Source: Planctomycetota bacterium (GTDB lineage Bacteria > Planctomycetota > Planctomycetia > Gemmatales > Gemmataceae). From it: a stretch of 41,142 bases of DNA. Position numbers and translations under genes: made by a program. Positions 1 to 41,142 of the stretch are shown here, one piece after another (within the stretch, counting starts at the first letter, position 1; the number at the start of each line of letters is the position of its first letter). The DNA lies in assembly GCA_021413735.1 (NCBI GenBank), contig JAIOPV010000204.1:1-41142 (forward strand), written 5' to 3'. The notes under the pieces were generated by a model, which saw only the letters and a program-made list of their open reading frames with translations, was not told the DNA's origin and made no database searches.

Positions 1-2
1 GG

Positions 3-2734: not shown

Positions 2735-2739
2735 GCTGA

Positions 2740-2768
2740 GGCGCCGCGCGAGACGACCGCGCGGCGCC
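2740..2768. terminator. Perfect 11-bp hairpin between convergent genes
   Basis: GGCGCCGCGCG at 2740-2750 pairs exactly with CGCGCGGCGCC at 2758-2768 around a 7-base loop. It sits in the 45-base gap between the DUF1552 stop and the convergent minus-strand gene, as expected of a bidirectional terminator. No T-run follows on either side, so classical intrinsic termination is uncertain. Confidence 0.6.
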
Positions 2769-2779
2769 CTCCGACCGAT

Positions 2780-3649
2780 TCAATTCCCGCCCAGCACGGT
2801 CTTCCCAGCCACCCGCACTGGGTCGAGGCTGGGAACGTAATTTTTCATCGCGTCGCCGCGCTTCACAAGTTCCCCAACGAATGGTTGCACCGGAACCTTT
2901 TCCTTCTCGGTTGGTTTCTTGTCGATGAATGCGCCATCGGTCAATGACACCCACACCGGGCGGCGGTAGTTGACCACGTCCGCGCCCAAATCCTTGACCT
3001 TGTGAATCGCGTCGCTGTTCGGACCGACGGTGAACTCCAACACGCTGTAGTCCGGCGAGACGCGAAAGTAGCGGTAGCCACATCGCGGCGGTTCCCCGTT
3101 CTTCATCACATCCGGGTACTCGCTGAGCCAGTACAGATTTCCCTGCACCCAGTTCACGTACACCCACTCGTTCGCCTTCAGGATGTCGTTCATTGACACC
3201 CGCTTCACCACCTCTCCGGTCTTCTTGTAGATCACGAGGCGGTCGGCGAAGCCAGCGTAGTTCTTGAACTCATTGGGCGGGTTCTGGTTGACCTGCTTCT
3301 CCTGTCCTCCGGGTGGCTTGCTCCCGCCGACGGCCCAGCTTGCCGTCTGGAAGACCGCGAACGTTTCGCCGCCGGGTGGGACAAAAATGTGCGTATACGT
3401 GACCTTGAAGTGCTCAAGCCCGTAGGGCAGACCAACCAGCCACCCGGTGTGCGTCGTGCCGGTCTTGTTGTCTTTCCAGGTGAACTCCCAGCCATCCTTG
3501 CCGTCTGGTTGTTTCTTCGACTCGGCGGTGACGACGTATCGACCGTCGGCCGACTGGCAGCCGTCGACATACCCGGGGCGAGTATGTCCAGCGAGCGCAA
3601 GGGTAGGAAACGCGAGAAACGCAATGATGAGCAGTGAGATTCGGGACAT
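2780..3649 (-). CDS. Exported protein of unknown function
   Basis: A 289-residue protein with a clear Sec signal peptide: MSRI, then a hydrophobic core LLIIAFLAFPTLALAG, with cleavage probably after residue 20. The mature part starts with the sequence GHTRPGYVDG and has several short aromatic, charged segments (GWEFTWKDNKTG, TAESKKQPDGKDG, VYVNWVQGNLYWLSEYPDV) that suggest an all-beta fold, perhaps propeller-like, but I do not recognise a named family. It is the last gene of the minus-strand unit that also holds ThuA, DUF1501, DUF1549/DUF1553 and a heparinase-like protein; the gap to the ThuA gene is 48 bases. An envelope or extracellular role in the same pathway is inferred from the signal peptide and context only. 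Confidence 0.8.
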   Translation of the reverse strand: MSRISLLIIAFLAFPTLALAGHTRPGYVDGCQSADGRYVVTAESKKQPDGKDGWEFTWKDNKTGTTHTGWLVGLPYGLEHFKVTYTHIFVPPGGETFAVFQTASWAVGGSKPPGGQEKQVNQNPPNEFKNYAGFADRLVIYKKTGEVVKRVSMNDILKANEWVYVNWVQGNLYWLSEYPDVMKNGEPPRCGYRYFRVSPDYSVLEFTVGPNSDAIHKVKDLGADVVNYRRPVWVSLTDGAFIDKKPTEKEKVPVQPFVGELVKRGDAMKNYVPSLDPVRVAGKTVLGGN

Positions 3650-3697
3650 GACACTGGCCTCAGGGTGAAGGCGTTTGCGAGACTTGGCGACGCGGAG

Positions 3698-4588
3698 TTA
3701 CTTCTTTTCGGCGGGAAACTGGCTCGTTTTGTCTGCGGTGGGAAAGTTTTCAGGGACTGCGAGCGTGACCTTGCCGGTTGCAGCCCACTCGGTGCCTCTC
3801 CACATCGTGGTGGCGAACCCGATGCAGCTCATCGCGAAGACGTCGTGACCCATCGGCGTGTGGACGACCCGTCCCTTCCCGTAGTCGACCGTCCACACGA
3901 TCGGCTCGTTCGTCTTGGTCGCCGGGCAGTACGCGGTCGCCAGCACCTTCATCCCCTCGGCCGGGCCTCGCAGGTTGTGCATGAGCTGGTCCTTCGCATG
4001 CATCCACTCCTTCGGCATACCCTTCGTAATGGGGTGGTTTGAATCGCGCACGACGACCGCGTACGGGTGGTTCGTCTCGCCCGTTCCCTTGCCCTCGCCC
4101 TTGGGGACGCGGACCTCCTTCCCGTCGTCGTCGAGGTAGACACGCTCGCCAAATTTACTGTCACGCCACCCGAGGCCGATCATCTTGTTGAACTCGGGCC
4201 AACTCCCGAAGCAGTTGTTCGCGGCATGGAAGAGCACGAAGCCGAGTTTCCCCTCGCGGACGCGGGCCTCGAAGTCCTTCTGAAACTCCGCCGGCCACGC
4301 GGCACCGTTGTAATTGCTCACAACCACGTCGTACTTGCTTAAGTCTGGCGGGAACGCGACTGCGCCCTCTGGGGCCTTTTCGCCAGGCTTCACGTTCGAC
4401 GACACATCCACCGTAAATCGGCCGCTCTGCTCAAGGACCTTCCTGAGATACGGCGTGGTCTGCTTCCAGTTGTGGTTGTGCTGACCGTCGATGATGAGCA
4501 CCCTGATCTTCGCGTCGTCGGCCGCGGCCGGCGATGCCAGGCACGCAGTGACCGCCGCCGCGACAATGAGTTTGCTGAACCGTCGCAT
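3698..4588 (-). CDS. ThuA domain-containing exported protein
   Basis: A 296-residue protein; the ATG at 4588 is chosen because it begins a signal peptide (MRRFSKLIVAAAVTACL, then ASPAAAD, cleavage near residue 22) and is preceded by AAGGGGA. The mature protein opens with IRVLIIDGQHNHNW, the first strand and loop of the ThuA (trehalose-utilisation-like, class I glutamine-amidotransferase-fold) domain, and continues with YDVVVSNYNGAAW, GFVLFHAANNCF, NHPITKGMP and GRVVHTPMGHDV. These are ThuA hallmarks over the whole length. In planctomycetes such proteins are common near sugar-degradation genes, and their reaction is not settled. Only 14 bases separate it from the upstream DUF1501 gene, so it is co-transcribed. 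A longer open frame upstream lacks any signal and is rejected. Confidence 0.9.
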   Translation of the reverse strand: MRRFSKLIVAAAVTACLASPAAADDAKIRVLIIDGQHNHNWKQTTPYLRKVLEQSGRFTVDVSSNVKPGEKAPEGAVAFPPDLSKYDVVVSNYNGAAWPAEFQKDFEARVREGKLGFVLFHAANNCFGSWPEFNKMIGLGWRDSKFGERVYLDDDGKEVRVPKGEGKGTGETNHPYAVVVRDSNHPITKGMPKEWMHAKDQLMHNLRGPAEGMKVLATAYCPATKTNEPIVWTVDYGKGRVVHTPMGHDVFAMSCIGFATTMWRGTEWAATGKVTLAVPENFPTADKTSQFPAEKK

Positions 4589-4602
4589 GTTGTTCCCCTT
4601 GG

Positions 4603-5898
4603 TCAGAACGCTTCCTTCACCGGTTCGGCCTTGGTGCCCAGGAAGGTCATCGGACGCCCTTCCTTCGACATGTATTCCTTGTGGCAGTCGATCTTCAGAG
4701 CGTGGCAGATCGTTGCGAGGAAATCCTGAGCGTTCACCGGGTGGTCGATCACCTCGCCGCCCTTCGCATCGACCTTGCCGATCACCGTTCCGCCACGGAC
4801 GCCGCACCCGGCCATCCATGTCGTCCAGGCTTTCGCGTAGTGTCCTGCCCCAAGCGTCTGGTTGTACCCACTGTCGGCCAGTTGCGGGGTTCGCCCGAAC
4901 TCGCTCATGAACACGATCAGGGTGCTGTCGAACAGGCCCCGGATCTTGAGGTCGTCGATCAGCAGCGAGATGGTCGGGTCGAGGTACTCCGCCCGACGCT
5001 TGATGTTCTTCGCCGCCCCGCCGTGGTCGTCCCACCCGTCGAGCGTGACCTCGATGAACGGCACGCCAACCTCGACCAATCGCCGCGCGAGGAGCAGCGA
5101 CTTACCGAACTGCGTCTTCCCGTAGGCGTCTCGGGTACGGAGCGGTTCGGCGTCGAGGTCGAACGCCTTCATCTTGTCGGAGTGTAGGAGTTGCAGCGCC
5201 TTCTTGTAGTTGGCGAGGTGCGTGCTGCCAGCGGCCGATGGTCGGGCCGCCTGGGCGTGGCCCTCGAACTCGGCGAGGAGTTTCGCCGTCTCATCGAACT
5301 CGTTGGTCCCGATGGCGGTCTTGAGGTTCTCAATCCCCTTCGCCGGGTCGTTGACCGGGACCGGCGCGAACTTCGGGCCGAGGTAGGCAGGCACGCTCCG
5401 GTGGAGCGGCCCGCTGCCGAGGCCGTCGGAGCCGGCGTAGACGCTGACGAAGTTCGGCAGTTCCGCGTCCAGCAGGCCAACTTCGCAGGCAGCGACGTTC
5501 CCGACCGACGGGTAAGCGACCGTTCCGTTCGGGTTGTAGCCCGTGTGCATCAGAATACGGGCACGCTCGTGGACGCTGTTACCGGTGCTCATGCCACGGA
5601 TGAGGCAGATGTCCTTCATCCGTGCCCCGAGCTTCGGGAAATACTCGCAGAACTTCACGCCAGCCACGGCAGTGTCGATCTGGGAGTTCTCTGCCTTGGA
5701 CTCGGGGACTGTGAACGTGTGGTGCTGGCTCACCCCGCCCTGCATGTGCAGCATGATGCACGCTCGGGGCCGCCCGACCTTACCCTCGGCCGCGTAAGCG
5801 GCGCGGGGCAGGAGCCAACCGGACGGCGACACTCCAATCACGCCGGCTGCCGTCAGCTTCATGAAGTCACGCCGAAATACGGCCTGTTGAAAAGCCAT
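4603..5898 (-). CDS. DUF1501 domain-containing exported protein
   Basis: A 431-residue DUF1501 protein. The N-terminus FRRDFMKLTAAGVIG followed by a hydrophobic stretch and RAAYAAEG is a twin-arginine-like export signal. Family landmarks in order are IMLHMQGGVSQHHTF near residue 46, ICLIRGMSTG, GKSLLLARRLVEVGVPFIEV near residue 263, WDDHGG, LIVFMSEFGRTPQ near residue 326, GAGHYAKAWTTWMAGCGV and a C-terminal HPVNAQDFLATICHAL. DUF1501 proteins have an alkaline-phosphatase/sulfatase-like fold; their activity is unproven. The usual GRDHW motif after EFGRTP is replaced by GAGHY. It follows its usual partner, DUF1549/DUF1553, by 36 bases, in the minus-strand unit that begins with the heparinase-like gene. 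Confidence 0.93.
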   Translation of the reverse strand: MAFQQAVFRRDFMKLTAAGVIGVSPSGWLLPRAAYAAEGKVGRPRACIMLHMQGGVSQHHTFTVPESKAENSQIDTAVAGVKFCEYFPKLGARMKDICLIRGMSTGNSVHERARILMHTGYNPNGTVAYPSVGNVAACEVGLLDAELPNFVSVYAGSDGLGSGPLHRSVPAYLGPKFAPVPVNDPAKGIENLKTAIGTNEFDETAKLLAEFEGHAQAARPSAAGSTHLANYKKALQLLHSDKMKAFDLDAEPLRTRDAYGKTQFGKSLLLARRLVEVGVPFIEVTLDGWDDHGGAAKNIKRRAEYLDPTISLLIDDLKIRGLFDSTLIVFMSEFGRTPQLADSGYNQTLGAGHYAKAWTTWMAGCGVRGGTVIGKVDAKGGEVIDHPVNAQDFLATICHALKIDCHKEYMSKEGRPMTFLGTKAEPVKEAF

Positions 5899-5934
5899 CG
5901 GAACACTCCAGAGTCGGGAGTCTCACGGGTCAGT

Positions 5935-7878
5935 TCAGTTCACCACCATGAACTCGCTGCTGTTGACCAACACCCACACGATGCGGGCGTAGCCGTCGCG
6001 CGTGGTCTTCTGCTTCTCGACGAAGGCAACGAACTTCACCCGCTCGGCAGGCGTCGGCTTGCGGGACAGCACCGCGAGGAAGAGTTCATCAACGGCTTCG
6101 GTCGGTGACTTCGCGGTCATCGTGACACGGTCCGCCACCTTCCCACCGTTGTTGAAGTTCGGGTCGTTCATCAGCTTCAGCGCGTGTGGCACGCCGAGTT
6201 TCAACTCGGTCGACTCGTCGGCCTCGCCCGGCCCTCGGAAGAACGAGACGAACACGCTCCGCGGGCTGGGTGGCGGCGGCGCCTTCGGGTTCGGCTTCTT
6301 TTTCGGGTCGACTGGCGGCGCAATCTCCGGTACTTCCAGAGCGACGCACAGCGCGTCGTACAGTTGCTCGGGGGTGAGGACCTTCGGTGCCATCCTCGCG
6401 AACAGGGCGTCCGCCTCCGGTTTCTCGTTACCCGGTGCCACCTTGCTTGTTCGCTGGTATGCGTCGCTGAGGGTGATGCAACGCACGAGGTGGCGGACGT
6501 CGAAGCCGGACACGACGAACTCGTCGGCCAACTCGTCGAGCAGCGCCGGGTGCGAGGGGGAGTTGTGATCGCCGAAGTCATTCAGCGGGTTGACGAACCC
6601 GCGGCCGAAGAAGTGTGCCCAAAAGCGGTTGACCGCGGCACGGGCGAACATGCGGTTCTCCTTCGCGGTCAACCATTCCGCGAACGGCGGGCGGTGGCTC
6701 TTGGCAGGGTCTGCAGTCAACTTCGCCCCATCGAGAAGTCCGGCCGGCACCTTCTTGCCACCGTTGCGGGCTTCACCGTCGTTGGGGATGTTGATGCTGA
6801 TCTCTTTCGGCGGCGTGGGTGGCTTTTTCCCGGGTTTTGGTTCTTCGAGGTGTCGCTCCTTCACGCCCGGTGTGTTTTTGTTCTCCACCGTCTCCATCCG
6901 CGCGGCTTGACCGAAGAACGCGGCGAGATTCCAGAAGTCGGTCTGCTTCCACGCGCCGAACGGATGGTCGTGGCACTCGGCGCACTGGAGTTGCACGCCC
7001 AGATACACCTGCCCGATGTTCCCCGCGAGGATCTTCGGGGCGAACTGCGAGTTCATGTCGCCGTTGTAATAGAAGAACAATCCCTGCGGCGCGTCGCTGA
7101 GAGGCCCGGTGGCGGTGAGGATGTCCCGCGTCAGTGCGGCCCACCCGCGCCCCTCGTTGAGTTGCTTCGCGAACCACTCCTTGAACGGCTCCGGTTGCAT
7201 CGGCCGCTGGTTGACCGTGGTCAGGTAGAACACGTTCACCCACCGTTCACCGAAGTGCTTGCCGTAGTCCTCGGACGCCAAGAGGGAATCGATCAGCTTC
7301 GCTCGCTTGTCAGCGTCTGTCGAATCGAGGAAGCCCGCGGCTTGCTGAGCCGTCGGTGGCTTGCCGACGATGTCGATGTACACACGACGGAGGAACTCGC
7401 CGTCGTCGGCTTTCAGCGAGGCGGGAACCTTCGTGGCCGCCAGTTTGGAAGCGATCTCGCGGTCGATGAACTTCGCGACCTCCGCGGGCTTCTTGGCCGC
7501 GCGTGCTGGAGCCGTTCCGGTTTTCTTCTCGATCCCCTTCGCTCCGAGTGCGATCCACTCCCGGATGAGCTTCTTATTCGCGTCCGAAACCTTGTTGTCG
7601 GTCTTCGGCATCTCGTCTTTCACGAGCTTCTGCCAGAGGAGGCTCTCGTACGGCTTGCCGGGCACAACGACCGAGCCGCTCTTGCCGCCCTTGAGCACAC
7701 TCGGCAAGGTGCGCAAGTCGAGGCCGTTCTTCTGGTGAACACCGCCGTGGCACTGAAGGCAGTGTGTGTTCAGCACCGGCAGCACGTCGCCTTCAAATGT
7801 CGGCACCTTCGGTGTGTCGGCCGTGGTGAGGCTGGGTGCGAGCAGAATCGCGATCAAACTGAGCAGACTGCGTGTCAT
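5935..7878 (-). CDS. PSCyt1-DUF1549-DUF1553 cytochrome-like protein
   Basis: A 647-residue protein; the ATG at 7878 is preferred because it starts directly with a signal peptide (MTRSLLSLIAILLAPSLTTA), whereas an ATG nine codons upstream would add a charged leader. The N-terminal PSCyt1 domain has THCLQCHGG (haem C40-C43-H44) followed by the KGGKSGSVVVPGKP stretch. DUF1549 (PSCyt2) starts near residue 137 with FIDREIASKL, includes LRRVYIDIVGKPPT, and contains a second haem-type motif CAECHDHPFG at about residue 299. DUF1553 (PSD1) starts near residue 393 with ENRMFARAAVNRFWAH and ends SSEFMVVN. A proline-rich linker PPVDPKKKPNPKAPPPPSP interrupts the C-terminal domain. The protein is presumably exported and haem-loaded, and is partnered with the following DUF1501. 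Confidence 0.92.
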   Translation of the reverse strand: MTRSLLSLIAILLAPSLTTADTPKVPTFEGDVLPVLNTHCLQCHGGVHQKNGLDLRTLPSVLKGGKSGSVVVPGKPYESLLWQKLVKDEMPKTDNKVSDANKKLIREWIALGAKGIEKKTGTAPARAAKKPAEVAKFIDREIASKLAATKVPASLKADDGEFLRRVYIDIVGKPPTAQQAAGFLDSTDADKRAKLIDSLLASEDYGKHFGERWVNVFYLTTVNQRPMQPEPFKEWFAKQLNEGRGWAALTRDILTATGPLSDAPQGLFFYYNGDMNSQFAPKILAGNIGQVYLGVQLQCAECHDHPFGAWKQTDFWNLAAFFGQAARMETVENKNTPGVKERHLEEPKPGKKPPTPPKEISINIPNDGEARNGGKKVPAGLLDGAKLTADPAKSHRPPFAEWLTAKENRMFARAAVNRFWAHFFGRGFVNPLNDFGDHNSPSHPALLDELADEFVVSGFDVRHLVRCITLSDAYQRTSKVAPGNEKPEADALFARMAPKVLTPEQLYDALCVALEVPEIAPPVDPKKKPNPKAPPPPSPRSVFVSFFRGPGEADESTELKLGVPHALKLMNDPNFNNGGKVADRVTMTAKSPTEAVDELFLAVLSRKPTPAERVKFVAFVEKQKTTRDGYARIVWVLVNSSEFMVVN

Positions 7879-7948
7879 GGGACTGAGGCTCCGCGGGCAG
7901 GTCACAAGCTGAACCCCGGCCGCGGCAGGCGCAGACCGAGGAGTCGAT

Positions 7949-9694
7949 TCATTTCGTGAACGTGATCCTCTTGCCGTCGAATGTCACCGTTTGGCCGCCG
8001 ACGGTCACCTTGTCGCCGTCGGCCTTCACCTCCGGGTGCTTGTCCTTCGAGAGCGTCAGCACGGTGAATGTGTGCCCGCCAGCGGTGACCTTCGTGAACT
8101 GTGCTGTGTCATCCGACTTACCCTCGCCGATGCCGACGCCCACGAGCAAAAACGGCGCACGAGACGCGCCGGAGAAGTCCACCGCCAGGTGCTTCTCGCC
8201 CGCTGCGATCACGCCGGAGCCGTCCTTGCCGGGCGCGAAGTCCGGCGGCTTCGCGGAGAGGAAGTTGCCGAACTCGTAACGCTTGCCCAGACCCCACACC
8301 ACGACCGGGCCGAACTTTGGCTTGTAGTCGCCCTTCGGACCGTATCCCAGGAGCGCGGTCACGACGATGTCGTCGGCGTCCTTCCAGCGGTTGCGGAAGC
8401 AGTAGTAGCCGTGGACGCGGTCCTCCACCGCCTGCGGCAGGATGCCCGCGGGGTTCTTCGGCTCGACGCCGATCGGCCAGTTCACGAACGCGACGACCGC
8501 CTTCCAGGGTGTGGTCAGCGCGTCGAAGCTCTTCTCGTCCTTCGCGAGCCAACCTTTCTCGTTGATCCAGGCTTCCTTCGCAATGAGCTTGTGCTCGGCC
8601 GGTTCGACGAAGTTCTGGTACACCCACAGCATCGCGGGCTTGTACTTGTCCTCGACGATGCCGAAGCCCTGGGCGAACTGCCCGCCGTGGGACCAGTCGC
8701 CGCCCCGGGTGAACTCGTGCGTGCCGTACGATGGTCCGGCGGCCATGCGCAGCGGATACTGCGGGCGCCCGTCCTGCGGAATTATCTCCATGACCCACCG
8801 CAGGGCGACGTACTGGGCGTTCGGTCGGGGTGTGATGAAGTCCTTGCCGCAGGCCATGCGGGCCGACGCCAACCAGAGCTGGAAGCCGGTGTCGGAGGAG
8901 ACGTGGCTGGGCCCCTGGCTCTCGGCGTACCAGCCGTGGTCGCCGAAACCCTCGGCGAGCATCGCCAGCGTGTTCTTGTATGCATCCGGCAGCCACTCCT
9001 CCCAGATCTTGACGCCCTCGGCGCCGGGGTCACCCGCGAGCGCGGCGGCCGCGACCGCGCCGCACATGATCCCGCCCGTGTGGTTCTTCGCGGGTGGGTA
9101 CTTCGGCTTGCGGACCACCTTTTCGAGGTTGAAACCCTGCTTCGTCTTGATGTCGAGGAACGCCTTTGCGACCCGCTTGCGATCGGCCTCGGGCCAGCCG
9201 TCGTAGCACAGATCGTAGCCGAGTGCCGCGACCGCCCACGAGGAGCCGGCGCGCAGTTCGCCGTTCGGGTTGGTGAACGAGTAGCGTCCGTCGCGGTCGG
9301 CCTCGCCCTTGATCATGCGGTCGAAGCACTGGAGCCCGAGGTCGGCGTACTTCTTGTCGCTGGTGAGCTGGTAGAGCAGGCCGTACCCAGCGGCGTGGCC
9401 GATAGTGAACGCTCCGACGGTGTGCTCCGGCTGCCCGGCGGTCAAGAGCGTGTCGCCGTTCTTGCCGTCGAGCAAGAACCGCAACCGCTTGACGATGGCT
9501 TTGCCATCGGGCGTCTCGGCCCGCTTCTTGATTTCGGGGACGTCACCCTTGCGGAAGAGTAGACGCGGGTGCTCGCCGGCTTCCGGCTCTTTCCAGTCCT
9601 TCACGTCGGCCGGCCACGGCGATTCGGCCGCGGAAACGGCGACTGGTAGTGCGAGGCAAACCGCGACGAGGCCGAGTCGGAGAGCGTATTTCAT
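7949..9694 (-). CDS. Heparinase II/III- or alginate-lyase-like exported protein
   Basis: A 581-residue protein with a Sec signal peptide (MKYALRLGLVAVCLALPVAVSA, cleavage near residue 23). The mature N-terminus has HPRLLFRKGDVPEIKKRA, the opening typical of polysaccharide-lyase toroid domains of the heparinase II/III and alginate-lyase type. Helical-hairpin text continues through AALGYDLCYDGW, NHTGGIMCGAVAAAAL near residue 205, and GWYAESQGPSHVSSD near residue 255, a likely active-site region with Tyr, Glu and His. The last ~150 residues read as beta-strands (FGPVVVWGLGKRYEFG, KVTVGGQTVTFDGKRI), fitting the beta-sandwich domain of these enzymes. It would cleave or bind an acidic polysaccharide outside the cytoplasm; the substrate cannot be told. 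It is the first gene of the minus-strand unit, 70 bases before the cytochrome-like gene. Confidence 0.72.
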   Translation of the reverse strand: MKYALRLGLVAVCLALPVAVSAAESPWPADVKDWKEPEAGEHPRLLFRKGDVPEIKKRAETPDGKAIVKRLRFLLDGKNGDTLLTAGQPEHTVGAFTIGHAAGYGLLYQLTSDKKYADLGLQCFDRMIKGEADRDGRYSFTNPNGELRAGSSWAVAALGYDLCYDGWPEADRKRVAKAFLDIKTKQGFNLEKVVRKPKYPPAKNHTGGIMCGAVAAAALAGDPGAEGVKIWEEWLPDAYKNTLAMLAEGFGDHGWYAESQGPSHVSSDTGFQLWLASARMACGKDFITPRPNAQYVALRWVMEIIPQDGRPQYPLRMAAGPSYGTHEFTRGGDWSHGGQFAQGFGIVEDKYKPAMLWVYQNFVEPAEHKLIAKEAWINEKGWLAKDEKSFDALTTPWKAVVAFVNWPIGVEPKNPAGILPQAVEDRVHGYYCFRNRWKDADDIVVTALLGYGPKGDYKPKFGPVVVWGLGKRYEFGNFLSAKPPDFAPGKDGSGVIAAGEKHLAVDFSGASRAPFLLVGVGIGEGKSDDTAQFTKVTAGGHTFTVLTLSKDKHPEVKADGDKVTVGGQTVTFDGKRITFTK

Positions 9695-9833
9695 GTGCTG
9701 CCGTGCGGGAGGGGTTCGGGGAAGGCACCCACTGAACCCCGCCTGTCGGCTTCCTCAGACAGCCGCGAGCGTCTGCGCGCGTGGTCCGGTGGGGTTCGGC
9801 TGGCGGTAGCCTCCTTCGCACAGGTCCGACCCC
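9695..9833. promoter_or_regulatory. Divergent intergenic region with two dyads
   Basis: This 139-base gap separates the divergent heparinase-like and SMP-30-like genes and must hold both promoters. GGGGTTC at 9711-9717 pairs with GAACCCC at 9734-9740, and CTGTC at 9743-9747 with GACAG at 9758-9762. These could be operator-like sites or leader hairpins. No clear -35/-10 pair was recognised. Confidence 0.35.
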
Positions 9834-10784
9834 ATGCCCCGATTACTTACCCTCGCCTCCCTCTTCGCGTTCGTCGTACCCGCCCTCGGCGCGGAGCCGG
9901 ACGCCGCCCCTTCGGGCGTGTACACGGCGGAAGTGGTCGAGGGCAGCCCGAAGATGACCGCGGCCAGTATGGCATGGTGGAACGGCAAGCTCATAATTGC
10001 CGACCGCCGGGGGAAGCGGCTCGTCGCGTTCACCCCACCGGACAAGTTCGAGACGCTCCGCGAGGTGCCGACCCCGGTCGGGCTGGCGGTCGATCCCGAC
10101 GGTCACCTCGTCCTCACCGAGCGAGATCCGAGCCGAGTCGTGCGCATCAAAGCGGACGGTACCAGTTCCGTTCTCGCGGAGAAGGACGTCGGCACCCCAC
10201 AGTTTGTGACCGTTCACAAGTCCGGCCGGGTGTTCTGGTCCGGCTTCCCGGACGGCGGCACCCGGAGTGTCGTACCCGGCAACCCGGTCGAAGTTCTCTC
10301 CCCGAAGATCGGCCACACCTACGGCATAGGCTTGAGCCCGAAACAAGACTGGCTCTACGTTGCGTCGAAGTTGCCCAACGCCGATGGCCGGGCCGTGTGG
10401 CGGTTTCCGCTCGACGCAGACGGGAAGCCTGGGAAGGGTGATGTGTTCTTCAAAGTCCAGGATCTCAAGCCGCAACTGGAGAAACTCCCTGCGGCCAAGG
10501 ACAGTCGCGAGAGCCTGCTGGGGTGGGTCGGACGGTTGCAGGGGCTGGCGGTGGACCAACTCGGAAACGTGTACGTCGCCGGCGCCGAGTCGCACACATC
10601 GGGCGAGGCCGTCGCGGTCATTTCCCCCGACGGTAAGAAGGTCGTGGCCATGGTCCTCGGCGTGCCGCGGAACGTGTCGGGTCTAGCGTTCGGCGGGAAG
10701 GACGGCCGCACGCTCTACATCACCGGGGCCGGGGATTACGAGCTGCACCATGTCCGGTTACCGGTCGCCGGTGCTGGGTGGTGA
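9834..10784 (+). CDS. SMP-30/gluconolactonase-like exported beta-propeller protein
   Basis: A 316-residue protein with a signal peptide (MPRLLTLASLFAFVVPALGA, cleavage near residue 20). The body consists of propeller-type repeats: MAWWNGKLIIADRRGKRL, VGLAVDPDGHLVLTERD, VTVHKSGRVFWSGFPDGG, YGIGLSPKQDWLYVAS, and LAVDQLGNVYVAG. The pattern of a glycine/aspartate turn followed by a hydrophobic strand matches the SMP-30/gluconolactonase/LRE group. The family binds a divalent metal and often hydrolyses sugar lactones; whether this one is an enzyme cannot be decided, because exported planctomycete members are often of unknown function. It is divergent from the heparinase-like gene and lies 92 bases before the broken DUF1501 gene, so it may share a transcript with the plus-strand cluster. 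Confidence 0.8.
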   Translation: MPRLLTLASLFAFVVPALGAEPDAAPSGVYTAEVVEGSPKMTAASMAWWNGKLIIADRRGKRLVAFTPPDKFETLREVPTPVGLAVDPDGHLVLTERDPSRVVRIKADGTSSVLAEKDVGTPQFVTVHKSGRVFWSGFPDGGTRSVVPGNPVEVLSPKIGHTYGIGLSPKQDWLYVASKLPNADGRAVWRFPLDADGKPGKGDVFFKVQDLKPQLEKLPAAKDSRESLLGWVGRLQGLAVDQLGNVYVAGAESHTSGEAVAVISPDGKKVVAMVLGVPRNVSGLAFGGKDGRTLYITGAGDYELHHVRLPVAGAGW

Positions 10785-10876
10785 GCCGTCTGTCTGGCGA
10801 AGCGTCGGCCGGGGTTCGGTCATGTGGTACAGTGTCAAGTACACCCCGCCGGCCTTCCCGCCCCGAGCTATTCCCC

Positions 10877-12100
10877 ATGACCCGATCCGTTACTCACGCC
10901 GCCGAATGTCGCCGGGCCGACCACCACCTGTCACGCCGCCTGTTCCTTCAGGGTGCGGGTGCCGCCGCGGTGGGCGGGTTCGGCCGCCTCTTCGCCGCCG
11001 ACAACGCGGCAAAGACCGTCGCACAGCAGAAGCACGTCATCCTTGTGTTCATGTCCGGCGGGCCGAGCCAGTTCGAGACGTGGGACCCGAAGACTGGGCG
11101 GCCGACCGGCGGGCCGCACATGAACATCCAGACCACCGTTCCAGGCGTGAGGTTCGACGAATACATGCCGAACCTCGCCCGGCTCGCCGACAAGATGGCC
11201 GTGATCCGCTCGATGACGAGCGACCTCGGCGACCACCTGGAGGGGCACTACCTCGCCCAGACCGGCCACAGGCCGACGAACGTGGTCGCCACCGCGCCGC
11301 ACTGGCTGTCGGTGTGCGCCCAGCAACGGCCCGCGGCGAGCGGGCTGCCCTCGTATGTCGTCCTCGGGGCCGAGCAGGGTGGAAACATGGCCGTGCCGGG
11401 GCCGGGCTTCCTCGGCGCGGGGTACCAGGGGCTCTACTGCCCTGGCAAGGGGCAGGGGCCGGAAGACCTCCCGGCTGCGGGGGCGAAAGACTTGGACGAT
11501 TACCGCCGACGGGCCACGCTCCGCGCCAAGTTGGGTGAAGGTTTCTCGACCGGCCGCGCCACCGTTGCCGCCGACAGCCACGACGCGGCGTTCGGGTCGG
11601 TCGAGCACCTGCTCCGCAACCGCGACCTGTTCGACCTGTCGAAGGAGCCGCCAAAGCGGGTCGAGAAGTACGGCCCGACCGCCCTCGGCCGGGACTGCCT
11701 GCTCTCGGCCCGGCTGGTCGAGAAGGGCGTGCCGTTCGTCCGCGTCCAGCACCAGGGCGGGCTGGCGTGGGACAAGCACCGGCGGGCGTTTGACAGCCAG
11801 CGGCACCTGACCCGCGAGTTCGACATCGCGACAGGTGCGTTGATCGAAGACTTGAGAGAACGCGGGCTGTGGGACAAGACGCTCGTCATCCTCATGGGCG
11901 AGTTCGGCCGCACGCCCGGTGCTAACCGAGCGGTGCTACTCGTGCCACTCGGCCGAGGCCCAGGCGCAGAAGAAGCTCAAGGGCGGCCTCCTCATCGACA
12001 CCCGCGACGGACTCCTCCGCGGCGGCGACTCGGGTCCCGCTGCCGTCCCGGGCAAGCCCGCCGAGGGGACGCTACTCAAGGCATTGCGGCACGACGGTGA
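10877..12100 (+). pseudogene. DUF1501 gene truncated at its 3' end
   Basis: The ATG at 10877 opens a DUF1501 protein: HHLSRRLFLQGAGAAAVGGF is a twin-arginine-like signal, followed by HVILVFMSGGPSQFETWDPK, MAVIRSMTSD, GRDCLLSARLVEKGVPFVRV and LVILMGEFGRTPG. Family similarity stops right there, at about base 11918 (residue ~347). The frame then runs to a stop at 12100 in arginine- and proline-rich text that is just the +1-frame reading of the next gene. The intact relative at 14572 has about 95 more residues after GEFGRTP, including GRDH and the final strands, so the C-terminal quarter is missing. The most likely cause is a deletion that joined this gene to the PSCyt1 domain of its neighbour. 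The remaining product would probably not fold correctly. Confidence 0.75.
11905..11925 (+). other. Deletion or fusion junction between DUF1501 and PSCyt1 genes
   Basis: In one frame the bases encode the DUF1501 motif GRTP; in the next frame the overlapping bases encode RPVLTERCYSCH, the usual entry to a PSCyt1 domain. The bases around CGCACGCCCGG could belong to either gene, as expected for a short microhomology. No start codon other than a GTG at 11919 exists in the downstream frame after the in-frame TGA at 11853. Confidence 0.65.
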
Positions 12101-35770: not shown

Positions 35771-37681
35771 GTGGGCAAGCCATTTCAGTCGGAACTCGCA
35801 CAGTTGCCGCAGACGTACCTTTGGGCCTCGGAGTTCTCTGTCGAATCTCTCGCGAAGGCTCTGCGTCGGTCAAAAGTACCGCTCTTGGCGGTCGGTTCGG
35901 GAGGCTCTTTCACAACCGCTTGCCTCGTGACGGCGTTACACGAGCGCCACTTCGGACTGCCCTGCGTCCCGATGACTCCGCTTGAAGTCGCTCGCAGCGA
36001 GATCGACCTCCGGGAGACGGCTGTCCTTCTGTTGACGGCCGGGGGTAAAAACGCTGACATCCTCGGAGCGTTCCACTCGGCGGTGCGGCGTGAGCCGAGA
36101 CGACTGGTCATCGTTTGCGCCACGACGGGTTCAAAATTGGCCGCTGCGGCCGCAGAACACTCGACCGTCGAGGTATGCGAGTTCGACCCGCCGCCGGGAC
36201 GCGATGGCTTTCTCGCCACGAACTCGCTCTTCGCCTCGGGGCTACTCCTGATCCGCGCCTACGCTCTCGCGTCAGGTGTCGCGTCACAACTTCCCGGTGA
36301 CCTTCAAGCGCTCGCTGGTCCTCAGTTTCGCAAGGTGGATTTCTCCTCCCTTCTGTCACGGGAGACGATCGTCGTGCTGCACCCGCCGTCCCTCAAGACA
36401 GTCGCGGTCGAGATCGAATCGAAGTTCACCGAGGCGGCGTTGGGGCACGTACAGATTGCTGACTACCGCCAGTTCGCCCATGGCCGGCATCACTGGCTGG
36501 CAAAGCGAGGTGACGAATCGGCTGTGTTGGCTTTGAGCACCGTCGCCGATGACGCGATCACATCACGGACCCTTCGGCTGCTCCCCGACTCCATCCCCGT
36601 CGTGCGACTTGCCCTGCCACACGCCGGACCGGTGTCTTGTCTCTCCGGGGTCGCACACGCCTTTGAACTTGTCCGACAGGCGGGCAAGACGCGGGAGATC
36701 GATCCCGGTGACCCAGGCGTCCCGACGTTCGGGCGTCGCCTGTACAACTTGGGTGTTTTCCCGCGGATGCCACCTCCTCACGGGATTGCCACCCCGGAAG
36801 TAGCAATCGCCCGTAAGTCCCGCGTGCCGGGGGCGCAATCCTCTGCCTCGGCTTGGCAGGACGCCTACGCGGGTTTCCTCTCGCGCCTGAGTTCGGCTCG
36901 AATCCGGGCACTTGTGTTAGATTACGACGGAACACTCTGTGACGAGGCGAAGCGGTTCGATCCACTGCCCGCGCCGGTGGGAGATGAGTTATCTCGAGTG
37001 CTCCGCGCCGGAATCCCCGTTGGGATCGCGACCGGACGCGGGAAGTCGGTCCGCGAGCGCCTGCAGGAGGCACTCCCACGCAACGTGTGGGATCGGGTCC
37101 TGGTGGGGTACTATAACGGAGCGGACATTGGGTTGCTTTCGGACGACAATCGGCCGGACGGCACCAAGATGGTTTCGGAGCCGTTGCGGCCGGTCGAAGA
37201 TCTGCTCGTTCGACAGAGCCCCTTTCTCGGCCCCTGCGAGACGGAACTGCGGCCGTGGCAGATCACCCTGAAGCCAGCCGAGTCGATGGCCCTTGATCGC
37301 CTCTGGCAGTGCATGCAGGGGTTCGTCGCACATCTCACCGGGGTTGAGGTTCTCAGGTCGGGGCACTCGATCGATATTCTCGCGCCAGGTGTGTCGAAGC
37401 TGGCCGTGGTCCGTCGGCTGACGGAAATGGCTGGCTGCTCGACCGAGGAGGTGCTGTGCGTCGGCGACCAGGGGTGCTGGCCGGGTAACGATCACAAACT
37501 CCTCGGCACTTCGCTCTCTCTTAGCTCGAATGTGACCTCCGCTGACCCGGACCGCTGTTGGAACATTGCACCGGCCGGGGTGCGCGAATCACAGGCGACC
37601 CTGGGCTACCTGTCACTGCTGAAAAAGTCACGCGGCGGGCTACGGTTCGACCTACCCACCGCAGCGAGGAATTCGTCGTGA
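35771..37681 (+). CDS. Double-SIS and HAD-phosphatase fusion protein
   Basis: A 636-residue cytoplasmic protein (no signal). The GTG at 35771 is chosen because the 54 in-frame codons before it read as cysteine/glycine-rich non-coding text and similarity to SIS begins soon after. SIS half one includes PLLAVGSGGSFTTACLVTAL (residues ~37-56) and AVLLLTAGGKNADILGAF, the phosphosugar-binding pattern. SIS half two includes VEIESKFTEAALGHVQIADY (~213) and FAHGRHHWL, like the C-terminal isomerase domain of GlmS. A HAD domain follows: LVLDYDGTLCD (nucleophile D384, D386), IATGRGKS (T421), K543 and GDQGCWPGND (D566, N573, D574), all four motifs present, of the HAD-IIB type. It probably binds and dephosphorylates a sugar or nucleotide phosphate. 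It leads a four-gene operon with a phosphoribosyltransferase-like protein and a AAA+ ATPase. Confidence 0.85.
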   Translation: MGKPFQSELAQLPQTYLWASEFSVESLAKALRRSKVPLLAVGSGGSFTTACLVTALHERHFGLPCVPMTPLEVARSEIDLRETAVLLLTAGGKNADILGAFHSAVRREPRRLVIVCATTGSKLAAAAAEHSTVEVCEFDPPPGRDGFLATNSLFASGLLLIRAYALASGVASQLPGDLQALAGPQFRKVDFSSLLSRETIVVLHPPSLKTVAVEIESKFTEAALGHVQIADYRQFAHGRHHWLAKRGDESAVLALSTVADDAITSRTLRLLPDSIPVVRLALPHAGPVSCLSGVAHAFELVRQAGKTREIDPGDPGVPTFGRRLYNLGVFPRMPPPHGIATPEVAIARKSRVPGAQSSASAWQDAYAGFLSRLSSARIRALVLDYDGTLCDEAKRFDPLPAPVGDELSRVLRAGIPVGIATGRGKSVRERLQEALPRNVWDRVLVGYYNGADIGLLSDDNRPDGTKMVSEPLRPVEDLLVRQSPFLGPCETELRPWQITLKPAESMALDRLWQCMQGFVAHLTGVEVLRSGHSIDILAPGVSKLAVVRRLTEMAGCSTEEVLCVGDQGCWPGNDHKLLGTSLSLSSNVTSADPDRCWNIAPAGVRESQATLGYLSLLKKSRGGLRFDLPTAARNSS

Positions 37682-38784
37682 ACCAGGAGTTCGTACTCGG
37701 AAAACTCGCCGACCTCATGGAATGGGACAACGAAACCGCGCGCGGCGAGTTCGCCTGGCTCCGCCTTATGTCTCGGATGAAGTACGACGGCTACCCGGAA
37801 TTTCTGGCAGGAATGCGGTTCATCGAGAGTCTGACGGATTGGCTCCAGCAGTTCAAGCCGGCGCACCGGGTTACCGCTTACAAATTCGTCCGTGAGAACC
37901 TCGTGTTCGTCGGAACAGCGGAGATGCGCCACCTCGTCGAATTATTGTACCCGGAGACGGTCCAGCCCCGCCTTCTTAAGCGGGTGGCCGACTTGCGTGG
38001 CATTCCGCAATACCAGGTGTGGGCCGACCCGGAGGCGACAGCGCTCTACCAGAAATTGCTCAAAAAGACCCTCTTCATCGAATTAAGCGACGGCGGCAGG
38101 ATCGACATCTTCCGTCGCGCTAACCCAGGGGTCATCAAGAACGAACAGGTAGTAACCGCTCCCCAGATCAACGCGACCAAATGGGACGATCTCCTGAAGA
38201 AGCTTCGCAAGGCCACTGGGGACGTGAACGACCGTTTCGCGTTCGTGTTCCTTGTTGATGACTTCACCGCGAGCGGAACCACGCTGCTCCGCCTTGAGGA
38301 AGACGCATGGGACGGCAAACTGTTACGGTTCTGGAACGACATCAAGACCGCCGTGATCCCGAAGTACTTCGAGGACGATTGGACCCTCTGCGTTCACCAT
38401 TACCTCGCAACCGAACTGGCCGTGAAAACGGTCGAAGAGCGGGATGAAGCCGCCAGGGGAGAACTCGGGGCGGATGGATGGTTCCGGCAGAAGATCGAGA
38501 TGAGTTATGGGATGCGAATCCCGGCCGAGGTCGGTATCACGCCTCAATCGCATGAGGATTTCGCCGCCATCGTTCAAGAATACTACGACAACTCAATCGA
38601 AAGTGAGCACATGCGGAAGGGCGGAAACGACGCCCGGTTCGGGTTCGGCGGATGCGGGTTACCCTTGATCCTTGAGCACAATACCCCGAACAACGCGATC
38701 GCCCTTCTTTGGGCGGAGACCGATGGGAAAGAGGGACAGCACCCGATGCGACCACTCTTCCGTCGGAGACAACGGCACAGTTAA
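37678..38784 (+). CDS. Phosphoribosyltransferase-like protein (PRTase-CE type)
   Basis: A 368-residue protein. The GTG at 37678 overlaps the previous stop (GTGA) and is preceded by GAGGA, so it is translationally coupled to the SIS-HAD gene. The N-terminal ~100 residues are helical and tryptophan-rich (WDNETARGEFAWLRLMSRM, LTDWLQQFKPAHRVTAYKF). The core holds FVFLVDDFTASGTTLLRLEE with D194, D195 and the SGTT loop, the PRPP-binding signature of type I phosphoribosyltransferases. The C-terminus has FGFGGCGLPLILEHNTPNN and ends HPMRPLFRRRQRH, conserved features I associate with the PRTase-CE family of biological-conflict operons. It may make or consume a phosphoribosyl metabolite, or only sense one. 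Assignment to the fold is confident; the reaction is unknown. Confidence 0.85.
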   Translation: MNQEFVLGKLADLMEWDNETARGEFAWLRLMSRMKYDGYPEFLAGMRFIESLTDWLQQFKPAHRVTAYKFVRENLVFVGTAEMRHLVELLYPETVQPRLLKRVADLRGIPQYQVWADPEATALYQKLLKKTLFIELSDGGRIDIFRRANPGVIKNEQVVTAPQINATKWDDLLKKLRKATGDVNDRFAFVFLVDDFTASGTTLLRLEEDAWDGKLLRFWNDIKTAVIPKYFEDDWTLCVHHYLATELAVKTVEERDEAARGELGADGWFRQKIEMSYGMRIPAEVGITPQSHEDFAAIVQEYYDNSIESEHMRKGGNDARFGFGGCGLPLILEHNTPNNAIALLWAETDGKEGQHPMRPLFRRRQRHS

Positions 38785-38790
38785 TTCCCC

Positions 38791-38797
38791 AAGGAGG
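38791..38797 (+). promoter_or_regulatory. Strong ribosome-binding site for the AAA+ gene
   Basis: AAGGAGG lies eight bases before the ATG at 38806. It is the best match to the anti-Shine-Dalgarno sequence seen in the window and fits a need for more ATPase than PRTase-like protein. Confidence 0.6.
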
Positions 38798-38805
38798 GAA
38801 GTTCG

Positions 38806-40761
38806 ATGGAGAACCCGTTCCTCCGGCGCGCCAGCGAACTCCTCCGAGATGATGAGGCGTTCCTGGCAGTCGTCAGTCCCGAACCGGTCAACTATCACCT
38901 CAAACGGCCGGGTGAAGGCGGGACGCTCTACGACCGACTCGTACTCTTGCGCGGAACGCCGGGGGTTGGGAAGACGACGCTTGCAAGGCTGTTCGAGTTC
39001 CCCACTCTCAGCACGCTGCTTCGGAATCAGAGTTTCACGGGTCACAAAGAACTCCATGCCGCTCTCTCGGCCTGCCGCGCCATTGAGGACGACGAACCGC
39101 GGGTGCTCGGCTGTCGGCTGCCGATGGAGAGTGACTATCGCGACTTCTGGGAATTCCCATATTCGAGCGAGGTGAAGATCGGTCTGATGGCATCACTGCT
39201 TCAAGCGCGGACCGTACTCGCGTGGTTCCGGCATCTTCGGGCCGCAGGAATACAGCCCGATCAAGTTGAACTGATTACACGGCCGGAGTCTCAGGGCGTA
39301 CTCGACACCATCGGTGGGGTTCACGGCGAGGGCCTCATCTCGCGTGCGGCGGATGTTGAGAACCGAATCTACAAGGTAATTTCCGCGATCATCGCGCCCG
39401 ACGAGTCGACGCTCGCGACCGAGGTGGGCGGATCGTACAAGCCCTTTGACCATATCGAGCGGATTCGCATTCCGGCCATTCATGGGGTTGCCGGAGGGAC
39501 TCGCGACTTGATTCCCCTCGCCATCTTCGATGATGCACATGTGCTGCACCCGGAGCAGTTCAGGGCACTGGAGCACCTCCTCATCCGTCGCGAGCTTCGG
39601 ATCGCGCGGTGGATCATCGCTCGGTTCGACGTGCTCCTTCCGGATGAAGCGCTGGCCGCAGCGACCGAGGACCGCTCGGACGGGACAGAACACCCAGGCG
39701 TGACTGCGGACAGGGAGACGGAACCGATTCTCCTCCAGAGTTCCGGTCGGCGACGAGAAAAGAGAGAGCAGTTTCGTTCCGTTGCGAAGAGCATGGCATC
39801 ACGCTATCTCCGCCGCATGCCGCTGTTAAACGAAAAGGGTCTTAACGTTCTCGGGAACGTGCTGAGCGAGGCGGAACCCGGACTGACCGCGGGGCGGCTG
39901 AATGAGCTGGGGAAAAAGGTGAGCTCGACCCAGAAGCGGCTGAAGGTTTCAAAGCCGAAGCGGGAGGGGTTCGAAAAGCAGATCCGCGACTACTGGGGGA
40001 CAAAAACGGCTTTGCCGCCCGACGTTGCACTCGCCATGCTCAGCGTGATGATGCACCGGCTGAACGTGCGGCGAGGCCGCCCCAGTCCGGGGCTATTCGA
40101 TACGGATGACGACGAGGTTGCGACCGAATCCGCGCCTGACGAAGCGGCCATCGCCGTAGCCGCGAACCGAGAGGTGTACGAAGCAGCCGTCTTCCACCTC
40201 TTCCATCAATACGACCGGCCCTACTTTTACGGCATCGACAGTGTCTGCGACGCCAGTTCAGAGAACGCCGAGCAGTTTCTTCGCCTCTCCGCGGAGCTCG
40301 TTGAAGCTGTCGCGACGCAGCTCGCGCGAGCGAAGCCGCCGTCACTCACCCCGACGGTACAACACAAACTACTCCGGGAGCGCGGGTCGAAGATCATGGA
40401 AAAGTGGGACTTCCCCCAGGACACCGCCGTGCGGCGGATGGTGGAACGGATTGCGAATTTATGCTTGGAGAAGTCACTGGAACCGAACGGTGCGATCATC
40501 GCAAACGCCTTCGGCATTCCTCAAGAGGAGTTCGAGAAGCTTGGCAAGACTGCGCCCGAGGTGGCTCGGGTACTCCAATTCGCAGTGGCTTACAACGCGA
40601 TTACTTTGGTGCCGCACTACACCTGCCAAGACGAATCGTGGTGTCTGCTCGAACTCGGCGGGGTGGCGCTGCTTAAGTACGGGCTTACCCTGAAGCGCGG
40701 CGGGTTCATGAAGGGCAGTGCTGCCCAACTGGGGGCATTCGTGGTGGAGGAGTCGGCATGA
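38806..40761 (+). CDS. ORC/CDC6-like AAA+ ATPase
   Basis: A 651-residue protein starting 21 bases after the PRTase stop behind a strong ribosome-binding site. Walker A reads RGTPGVGKTTLARLFEF (K56), Walker B LAIFDDAHVLHPEQ (D242, D243), and a sensor-1-like strand WIIARFDVL follows near residue 268. The region after Walker B (FRALEHLLIRRELRIARWI) and the helical C-terminal half (VYEAAVFHLFHQYDRPYFYG near 460, MEKWDFPQDTAVRRMVERIA) fit the ORC/CDC6-like AAA family that I recall accompanying PRTase-CE proteins. The C-terminus may include winged-helix-like elements, as in CDC6. It probably acts as the ATP-driven sensor or switch of the operon. There is no export signal. Its stop overlaps the ATG of the next gene (ATGA). 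Confidence 0.85.
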   Translation: MENPFLRRASELLRDDEAFLAVVSPEPVNYHLKRPGEGGTLYDRLVLLRGTPGVGKTTLARLFEFPTLSTLLRNQSFTGHKELHAALSACRAIEDDEPRVLGCRLPMESDYRDFWEFPYSSEVKIGLMASLLQARTVLAWFRHLRAAGIQPDQVELITRPESQGVLDTIGGVHGEGLISRAADVENRIYKVISAIIAPDESTLATEVGGSYKPFDHIERIRIPAIHGVAGGTRDLIPLAIFDDAHVLHPEQFRALEHLLIRRELRIARWIIARFDVLLPDEALAAATEDRSDGTEHPGVTADRETEPILLQSSGRRREKREQFRSVAKSMASRYLRRMPLLNEKGLNVLGNVLSEAEPGLTAGRLNELGKKVSSTQKRLKVSKPKREGFEKQIRDYWGTKTALPPDVALAMLSVMMHRLNVRRGRPSPGLFDTDDDEVATESAPDEAAIAVAANREVYEAAVFHLFHQYDRPYFYGIDSVCDASSENAEQFLRLSAELVEAVATQLARAKPPSLTPTVQHKLLRERGSKIMEKWDFPQDTAVRRMVERIANLCLEKSLEPNGAIIANAFGIPQEEFEKLGKTAPEVARVLQFAVAYNAITLVPHYTCQDESWCLLELGGVALLKYGLTLKRGGFMKGSAAQLGAFVVEESA

Positions 40762-41010
40762 CTGCTTCGCTACGATGGGAGCCGTGCGTTCATCACAGAG
40801 GCGAAGCCGCAGAGGCGTTCGCCCGCGATTACTTCGCGAGGAAAGACCGTCGCATCGGACTCATCGCAGGTGCAGGGTTCGACCCCCGTTCAGCGATTGT
40901 GCCCCAGTTGCTCGCCTCTGCTGCGCCGGGCCGAGTCCGCGGCATGTTTTTGCGAGAGGAGCGTCCCTCTCCTCACGCGCATTTGCTAAGTTCGGCCGAG
41001 GCATCCCTTT
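40758..41010 (+). pseudogene. Fourth operon gene, interrupted by an insertion sequence
   Basis: The ATG at 40758 overlaps the ATPase stop. The first ~84 residues read as a real protein: LRWEPCVHHRGEAAEAFARD, then RRIGLIAGAGFDPRSA near residue 35, a glycine-rich strand-turn that looks like a nucleotide- or cofactor-binding loop, then GRVRGMFLREERPSPHAHLL. I do not recognise a named family, but the RRIGLIAGAGFDPR segment and ATGA coupling make it a genuine component. From about base 41000 the sequence changes character, and the minus strand carries a transposase C-terminus, although the plus-strand frame happens to stay open to the window end. The gene is therefore probably cut by the insertion. 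The break position is uncertain by some 20 bases. Confidence 0.6.
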
Positions 41011-41142
41011 TCACACATCACGTTTGTTCATTATTGAGTAGTCGTGAGGTGGCGATGTGTTTCGCTTCTGGGAAGCGGGTGCGGGGTGGTCTCGGCTTCT
41101 TCGGTCCACGGGTCGCCTTTCGATACCGTTTCAGGTTCGCAC
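41001..41142 (-). mobile_element. Partial insertion sequence, IS4-like, right-hand part outside window
   Basis: The transposase C-terminus at 41018-41142 places an insertion-sequence end a few bases beyond its stop, between about 40990 and 41017. The other end lies outside, so inverted repeats and target duplication cannot be defined. It lies inside the fourth gene of the SIS-HAD/PRTase/AAA operon. Confidence 0.6.
41018..41142 (-). CDS. IS4-type transposase, C-terminal fragment
   Basis: Reading the minus strand from the window edge gives about 40 residues: NLKRYRKATRGPKKPRPPRT, then RFPEAKHIATSRLLNNEQT and a TGA stop at 41018. The KATRGPKKPxPxRTRF and HIATSRLL pattern is typical of the basic C-terminal tail of IS4-family (DDE) transposases that are abundant in Gemmata-like planctomycetes. 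The catalytic domain lies beyond the window. Only the tail is visible, so the exact IS group is not certain. Confidence 0.7.
   Translation of the reverse strand, partial: ANLKRYRKATRGPKKPRPPRTRFPEAKHIATSRLLNNEQT

Follow-up and report, generated by a model that had tools for sequence, protein, structure and literature searches.

The window analyzed here is a 41,142-nucleotide stretch of a Gemmataceae planctomycete genome (assembly GCA_021413735.1, contig JAIOPV010000204.1), and it represents an entire contig (C240) of a source genome of 9.8 Mb in 293 contigs that is 95.74% complete. Near its end, on the forward strand, lies an operon whose nearest relatives are planctomycete operons. The first gene (positions 35771..37681, GTG start) encodes a fusion of an SIS-like sugar-phosphate isomerase/binding half with a HAD-IIB phosphatase of the SPP/Cof-like type, the second (37678..38784, GTG start) a type I phosphoribosyltransferase (PRTase) of the PRTase-CE family, and the third (38806..40761) an ORC/CDC6-like AAA+ ATPase. 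The fourth gene (40758..41001, ATG start) is represented only by its 5' part, the first ~81 codons of a predicted tandem CARF protein. An earlier reading of the sequence (here, the original prediction) had described a four-gene operon, and the couplings that it proposed were borne out: a GTGA overlap joins genes 1 and 2, genes 2 and 3 lie 21 bases apart, with a strong, purine-rich ribosome-binding site in between, and an ATGA overlap joins genes 3 and 4. Genes 1 to 3 likewise stand as described, but the operon has five genes rather than four, is split over two contigs, and is interrupted. A genome search found a single copy each of the ATPase and PRTase-CE genes in this genome.

The fourth gene had been read as a small gene ending at position 41010. 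This is ruled out by the frame from 40758, which stays open to the contig end, by the repeated element end that occupies that part of the contig, and by the remainder of the gene (~290 residues, minus strand) on contig C289 (locus L142, 6296-7182); the intact gene would have ~370 residues. When the full-length gene 4 of a relative was used as a query, its first part matched C240 and residues 78 to 357 matched C289. There, the remainder overlaps the fifth gene (L142 5196-6299), which a profile of the fifth gene identified as a PfkB kinase (E value = 7e-112).

A mobile element sits inside gene 4, cutting it after ~81 codons, and the end of the element (41002..41142) coincides with the end of the contig. 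This placement follows from three observations. Both element ends are imperfect terminal inverted repeats of ~22 bp; the two flanks, which were compared separately and not joined, have 12 identical bases in common, consistent with a target-site duplication (40990..41001, with the second copy at L142 7171-7182); and bases 41002 to 41142 recur over 139 to 141 bp with 100% or 99% identity at the C241 end, at both C63 ends, and near the C150 start. A further copy of these terminal 141 bases, with 82% identity, is present on C51. On account of the same three observations, a frameshift or a misassembly was rejected in favor of an insertion. The cassette, as we call the five-gene set below, is thus probably not working in this genome.

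Protein families and predicted folds

Profile searches upheld the families proposed for genes 1 to 3: the HAD, PRTase-CE, and ORC-CDC6-like matches all exceed the Pfam cut-offs, and the SIS half, for which Pfam gave no match, was recovered by profile comparison with solved structures. The HAD half of gene 1 matches Hydrolase_3 (E value = 2.3e-8) and, among solved structures, HAD phosphatases of the SPP/Cof type (3mpo, 7.8e-6), while the family profile of the SIS half matches GlmD/GFAT-type SIS proteins (8eol and 3hba, E value of about 2e-4). Gene 3 matches ORC-CDC6-like (PF24389; 1.4e-9, 37.7 bits versus a cut-off of 27) and carries a Walker A motif, GTPGVGKT, at residue 50, with the pattern found in 76 of 80 relatives and a variant loop, PPGxGKT, in the other four. 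Residue D242, followed by D or E, does not vary among the 15 sequences of alignment A3; a narrow Walker B pattern was found in 66 of 80 copies and missed the one in the window, in which IF precedes the DD. Gene 5 matches the PfkB profile (6.1e-16), and its nearest solved structures are fructokinases. Most or all copies retain the motifs of the SIS, HAD, and PfkB parts, as shown by DxDGT (77/78), GD..ND (78/78), and GSGGS (67/78) in gene 1 and by the GxGD anion hole (72/72) in gene 5. The catalytic motif residues singled out by the original prediction, D384 of the HAD half and D194/D195 of the PRTase, were also confirmed, with numbering from GTG 35771 and GTG 37678, respectively.

Gene 2 matches PRTase-CE (PF24390; 5.8e-17, 62.8 bits versus a cut-off of 27) and the PADLOC model PRTase_III-A (2.2e-15). 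Foldseek alone gave no match for this protein at E values of ≤0.001. In a VIA comparison of its AlphaFold model (pLDDT, 91.8), the 50 rows listed were all PRTases or proteins with the PRTase fold (UPRT, HPRT, PyrR, OPRT, and structural-genomics entries), with a best Z score of 8.6. The phosphoribosyl pyrophosphate (PRPP) motif was present by pattern in 76 of 80 copies, with variant letters in the other four. By this model, gene 2 is shown to have a type I PRTase fold with a PRPP motif and is predicted to be an enzyme.

Gene 4 is, by its predicted fold, a tandem CARF protein. A Pfam scan of gene 4 from three relatives returned no family, and near-full-length matches to the PADLOC CARF6 models PDLC01916 or PDLC01910 were obtained for all three (best E values of 1e-94 to 1e-111); the fragment in the window also matches CARF6 (6e-14). 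We compared the AlphaFold model of gene 4 from the relative at locus L046 (47 sequences; pLDDT, 93.1; pTM, 0.92) with the Protein Data Bank by VIA, and the 19 best rows were all CARF proteins (Z scores of 8.3 to 12.8), with the first non-CARF row at 7.6. The top match, Csm6 (Z score = 12.8), covers both halves of the protein (261 residues; root mean square deviation [rmsd], 6.7) and is followed by Can2 (Z score = 11.9; 113 residues; rmsd, 2.4) and, in lower rows, by Cam1, Csa3, ring nucleases, and Cad1, down to a Z score of 8.3. The ranking given by Foldseek alone, headed by cation-chloride transporter tails and KaiC with TM scores of about 0.2 to 0.3, was overturned by the VIA re-ranking. No solved structure was related by sequence to gene 2 or gene 4 at a meaningful E value, and a search of a viral structure library gave no useful match. 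Conserved loops of gene 4, matched with loose patterns, include GFDPR past the first strand (74/75), DxSAL (71/75), and SPxGSK (65/75), the last of which resembles the known CARF ligand loop. From its fold, gene 4 is predicted to bind a nucleotide-type ligand. The original prediction had cast the ATPase as the sensor of an invader; given the tandem CARF fold of gene 4, its product, rather than the ATPase alone, is the likely sensor.

Conservation and transfer of the five-gene set

When genome contigs were scanned with the PRTase alignment, 382 stretches and 328 relatives were obtained, and the counts reported here rest on 80 of the 328. These 80 loci span 13 phylum-level groups, including Planctomycetota, Pseudomonadota, Chloroflexota, Bacteroidota, Actinomycetota, Gemmatimonadota, Myxococcota, Verrucomicrobiota, and Chlamydiota. 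All five genes occur together in each of the 72 loci with room for them, and each of the remaining 8 reaches a contig edge ahead of the gene that is missing. Genes counted as present include a gene 4 (L047) and an ATPase gene (L056) that are interrupted, a SIS-HAD gene cut by the contig start (L054), and a PRTase gene with a broken frame (L121). The order is HAD-PRTase-ATPase-gene 4-PfkB in 54 loci and PRTase-ATPase-gene 4-HAD-PfkB in 18. When pairwise distances were compared among the five proteins, the matrices correlated with one another (r = 0.88 to 0.95 in 67 of the 80 loci, with a null maximum of 0.25); this shows a shared history but is not in itself proof of a shared function.

A sixth gene, for a NADAR glycosidase, is often present (25 of 80 loci); it occurs in all 18 loci of the second order and in 7 of the 54 of the first. 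The partner set named by the original prediction was therefore correct for the SIS-HAD, PRTase, and ATPase proteins and missed the PfkB kinase and the frequent NADAR. The co-occurrence survey that it called for agrees with a fixed set with parallel histories, and homologues scattered singly or placed in housekeeping sugar operons were not seen, yet there are PRTase-CE proteins of a different, short type that are not accompanied by the set. Such shorter-type planctomycete PRTase-CE genes adjoin NADAR-like frames at L005 (823-1488) and L004 (2-1555), with NADAR confirmed by Pfam in L005. As a separate observation, CPxC zinc-like motifs are present in the PfkB proteins of 53 of 72 loci, and 18 of the 19 loci without them have the second gene order.

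The cassette has been shown to move as one block between unrelated sites. Ten close pairs of loci were compared by blastn (limits of 1e-5, 1e-20, or 1e-30), and transfer as a unit is indicated because, in nine of them (L077/L078, L077/L080, L094/L097, L070/L081, L117/L119, L091/L093, L058/L060, L079/L070, and L074/L084), the cassette is the sole match, over 7.1 to 8.6 kb, including NADAR in two. For example, the loci of a Croceicoccus bin (L077) and a Qipengyuania genome (L078) have 7,641 bp in common at 99.6% identity, with the rest of the 21-kb loci unmatched; within about 100 bases of the edges of this match, no shared direct or inverted repeat of at least 9 bases was found. The tenth pair (L078/L080) matches over all 21 kb and represents the same site in near-identical DNA.

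A tblastn search with the ATPase found 16 plasmids, 8 of which are typed as conjugative. Among the 13 plasmid matches whose gene content was examined in 18-kb stretches, 11 have all five genes, and 5 have NADAR. In plasmid L041, no PfkB gene lies within the examined 18 kb, and in plasmid L045, the stretch begins inside a PfkB gene and contains no SIS-HAD gene. The latter, a Rhizobium tumorigenes plasmid, carries two tandem PRTase-ATPase-gene 4 triads (2-11004) with a patatin phospholipase gene between them, and a second PRTase-ATPase pair is also present at L038. A phage-borne system was considered and set aside, as the PRTase had no match in 50,697 phage records and a scan of viral contigs for close relatives gave no confirmed one.

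The distribution of the cassette is patchy. The PRTase tree requires 11 changes for Pseudomonadota and 3 for Planctomycetota, and starred branches force 5 and 2 of these, respectively. Within the phylum of the window, PRTase-CE exceeds its cut-off in 12 of 392 genomes (the source genome included), and the cassette was found in 3 of these 12: the source genome, G231 (all five genes), and G289 (four genes followed by the contig end; the same contig as L055). No such set was found at the remaining PRTase-CE loci over the cut-off, most of which are only about 3.8 kb, or in the second stretch of G369.

Genes near the cassettes were scanned in 275 of 285 called genes, ten having been excluded by hand, mostly as near-duplicates; the gene caller was crude. 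Among the first 25 families listed for each scan, Pfam matches include integrases (4), resolvases (4), transposases, a conjugation protein, DNA methylases, and DpdA, and PADLOC matches include type I restriction-modification, AbiEi, Mokosh, HEC-01, Gabija GajB (3), DpdF, JetD, and MzaA. The defence neighbours include Dpd and Wadjet-type proteins. The cassette lies on plasmids or beside recombinases and known defence genes, a setting that suggests a conflict system.

Ligand source, proposed mechanism, and alternatives

CARF proteins usually read oligoadenylate made by Cas10. We searched for four synthase families (Csm1, Cmr2, SMODS, and mCpol) in 49 carrier genomes, namely, the source genome, G231, G289, and the genomes of 46 of the 80 loci; G369 was left out, as none of the five families was in its stretch. 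The bins may be incomplete, and the counts stand without a background rate. Cas10 exceeded the cut-off in 4 genomes (Csm1 in 2 and Cmr2 in 3), with one further partial match; SMODS did so in 14 and mCpol in 2, in the same places as Cmr2. Taken together, 15 of the 49 genomes have at least one of the four families over the cut-off, and 34 have none; when all weak matches (E value ≤ 0.001) are counted, none of the four was found in 29. The source genome has no Cas10, in spite of its completeness, and contains a SMODS nucleotidyltransferase of the CBASS type on contig C67 (7413-7796). No SMODS CD-NTase was present among the operon genes scanned, so the operon itself is not of the CBASS type.

Because Cas10 is over the cut-off in so few carriers, it is not the general source of the ligand for the gene 4 sensor. 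A role as an accessory to type III CRISPR, with gene 4 reading Cas10-made cyclic oligoadenylate, would agree with the CARF fold and with the PADLOC names CARF6 and PRTase_III-A. The scarcity of Cas10 in carriers, and its absence from the source genome, nevertheless lead us to reject this explanation as a general rule and to regard it as highly improbable, though it could hold in single genomes.

The chances seem to us about even that this is a mobile conflict cassette of five, often six, genes, independent of CRISPR and gated by its CARF protein, where we infer both the defence role and the ligand. On infection, a nucleotide-type ligand would bind the CARF pair of gene 4, and the ligand-bound protein would let the ORC-like ATPase assemble with ATP. 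The model for this step is RtcR, in which the CARF domain binds tRNA halves with a cyclic phosphate and the AAA+ domain of the same protein then oligomerizes (PMC7790460). The assembled ATPase may then switch on the PRTase, which might break or exchange glycosidic bonds in the nucleotide pool, or ribosylate a base, so that phage growth stops. SIS-HAD, PfkB, and NADAR would act on ribose-phosphate or ribosyl products, either shaping the product or ending the response. Related precedents are the CARF-HAD effector Chp, which depletes ATP (PMC12715507), a DprA-PRTase pair that protects against T7 and lambda (PMC9122126), and the proposal that CARF domains are possible sensors of phage-specific nucleotides (PMC4012209).

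Several points weigh against this reading. The operon holds no known synthase of a CARF ligand, and the three sugar or ribose enzymes, being strictly present, are more than an effector system needs. The chemistry of the PRTase could also be synthesis, not only breakdown. The counts of defence neighbours are suggestive, having been taken without a matched control and from the first 25 families per scan only, and the phage records in which no match was found are a place where many defence genes also occur. Finally, the conserved HAD residues of Chp are reported not to be essential for its toxicity (PMC12715507), and motif conservation is therefore a weak guide.

The constancy of the three enzymes in all 72 loci with room is as expected of a biosynthetic pathway, and it leads to an alternative in which the operon supplies its own messenger. 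The PRTase, PfkB, and SIS-HAD proteins would build a ribosyl-nucleotide signal, or convert phage nucleotides into one, and the tandem CARF protein would read it, with the AAA+ ATPase as an infection sensor or an effector platform. The 34 carrier genomes without any of the four synthase families over the cut-off also point this way, as the CARF ligand there probably comes from elsewhere. However, known CARF pockets accept oligoadenylates or tRNA ends; the cassette has no nucleotidyltransferase; and plasmid cassette L041 lacks PfkB in the examined stretch. We therefore consider this alternative possible but improbable. The bolder proposal of a self-contained mobile immune pathway, in which a new ribosyl-nucleotide messenger is made or trimmed by PRTase, PfkB, and SIS-HAD (with or without NADAR), read by the tandem CARF protein, and acted on by the ORC-type AAA+ ATPase, with neither Cas10 nor a CD-NTase, is put forward as speculation and is likewise improbable.

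A metabolic function is another way to account for so many ribose and sugar enzymes (SIS, HAD-IIB, PfkB, PRTase, and NADAR). The cassette might scavenge or detoxify nucleosides that are ribosylated or modified, under the regulation of the CARF protein and the ATPase, and play no part in immunity; the similarity of PfkB to fructokinases and the presence of a nucleoside hydrolase and an SIS protein as single flank genes would fit. Among the 25 families listed per flank scan, however, a short-chain dehydrogenase (2/132) was the only repeated metabolic enzyme, and no transporter occurred twice. Transfer of the cassette alone between unrelated sites and the defence genes among its neighbours also speak against such a function, and a CARF protein with an ORC-type switch would be unusual for catabolism. 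We thus view it as unlikely.

The RtcR precedent could also be taken more literally, as a damage or RNA-repair response in which the CARF pair senses broken tRNA or RNA ends left by nucleases or toxins and the enzymes aid repair. The tRNA halves bound by RtcR favor this, as does a reported link between NADAR and RNA repair (PMC9503650). Neither the cassette nor the 25 commonest flank families listed per scan include an RNA ligase, RtcA/B, or a nuclease, and we judge this response to be decidedly unlikely.

Compared with known systems, what is new in the CARF-gated conflict cassette favored here is its constant gene content together with a CARF sensor. The PRTase-CE and ORC-CDC6-like families, whose Pfam numbers are consecutive, had reportedly been tied to immunity or conflict already by the paper that named them. 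Genes 2 and 3 score above the curated cut-offs for these two families; the CARF, SIS-HAD, and PfkB proteins are constant partners here. The CARF6 clade is said to come from a CARF classification study. Gene 4 resembles it in its full-length match to two CARF6 models and in its Csm6/Can2 CARF fold but has no effector domain in the same protein and is not tied to Cas10. We recognized no description of the five-gene set among the matches listed in the literature searched, which did not include the two family source papers; the set may be in print.

Four further systems invite comparison. In RtcR (CARF-AAA+-HTH, where HTH is helix-turn-helix), a CARF sensor controls an AAA+ ATPase, as predicted here, whereas the two are separate proteins in the cassette, the ATPase is of the ORC type rather than the NtrC type, and ribose-chemistry enzymes are present but no RNA ligase (PMC7790460). 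Chp of type III-A CRISPR likewise has CARF and HAD phosphatase in one pathway, but it is a single membrane protein fed by Cas10, unlike the separate genes, the SIS-fused HAD-IIB, and the mostly Cas10-free carriers found here (PMC12715507). The DprA-PRTase system of P2-like phages, a tested anti-phage system, shares a PRTase as the probable effector and differs in having two genes, with DprA as the proposed sensor (PMC9122126). In Ter-dependent systems (cited in PMC5512222), compared by description only, PRTases are predicted to produce a nucleoside-like metabolite for defence.

A widespread cassette of CARF protein, ribose enzymes, and ORC-type switch makes the ligand question of CRISPR-independent CARF proteins directly testable with five defined proteins, for which intact copies are ready in rhizobial plasmids and cultured bacteria. 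CARF sensors are mostly understood as readers of Cas10 products, and the bolder proposal of a self-contained messenger-making pathway, if true, would be a third way to feed such a sensor. The cassette moreover brings PRTase effectors and NADAR together in a single, fixed chemistry.

Surroundings of the window operon and irregular copies

Upstream of the window operon, a domain scan found two genes of the planctomycete cytochrome/DUF1592 and DUF1552 types. On the other side, past the PfkB gene on C289 (L142 1583-3859), there are two helix-turn-helix genes, a phage-type tyrosine integrase gene, and tRNA-Ser(CGA), which make it seem that the operon lies next to an integrated element. The window was searched for a copy of the tRNA-Ser end, which would mark the other island edge, and none was convincing (best, 17 bases at 88%).

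Besides the window, two other cassettes are interrupted, for a total of three, as if the system were costly. In Singulisphaera GP187, gene 4 is broken by a DDE_3 transposase gene (L047 13595-15021), and in a Longimicrobiales genome, the ATPase gene is broken by an insert of ~1.5 kb (L056 12838-14408) that had no Pfam match in the two frames scanned. Gene 4 also ends early at L067 (13084-13350) and L068 (13054-13734), at distances of 9 and 40 bases from the end of the contig, respectively, and these may be insertions too. On a plasmid of Rhizobium sp. CC-CFT758 (L042 6886-13863), the PRTase, gene 4, and HAD genes are annotated in pieces, perhaps representing a decaying copy.

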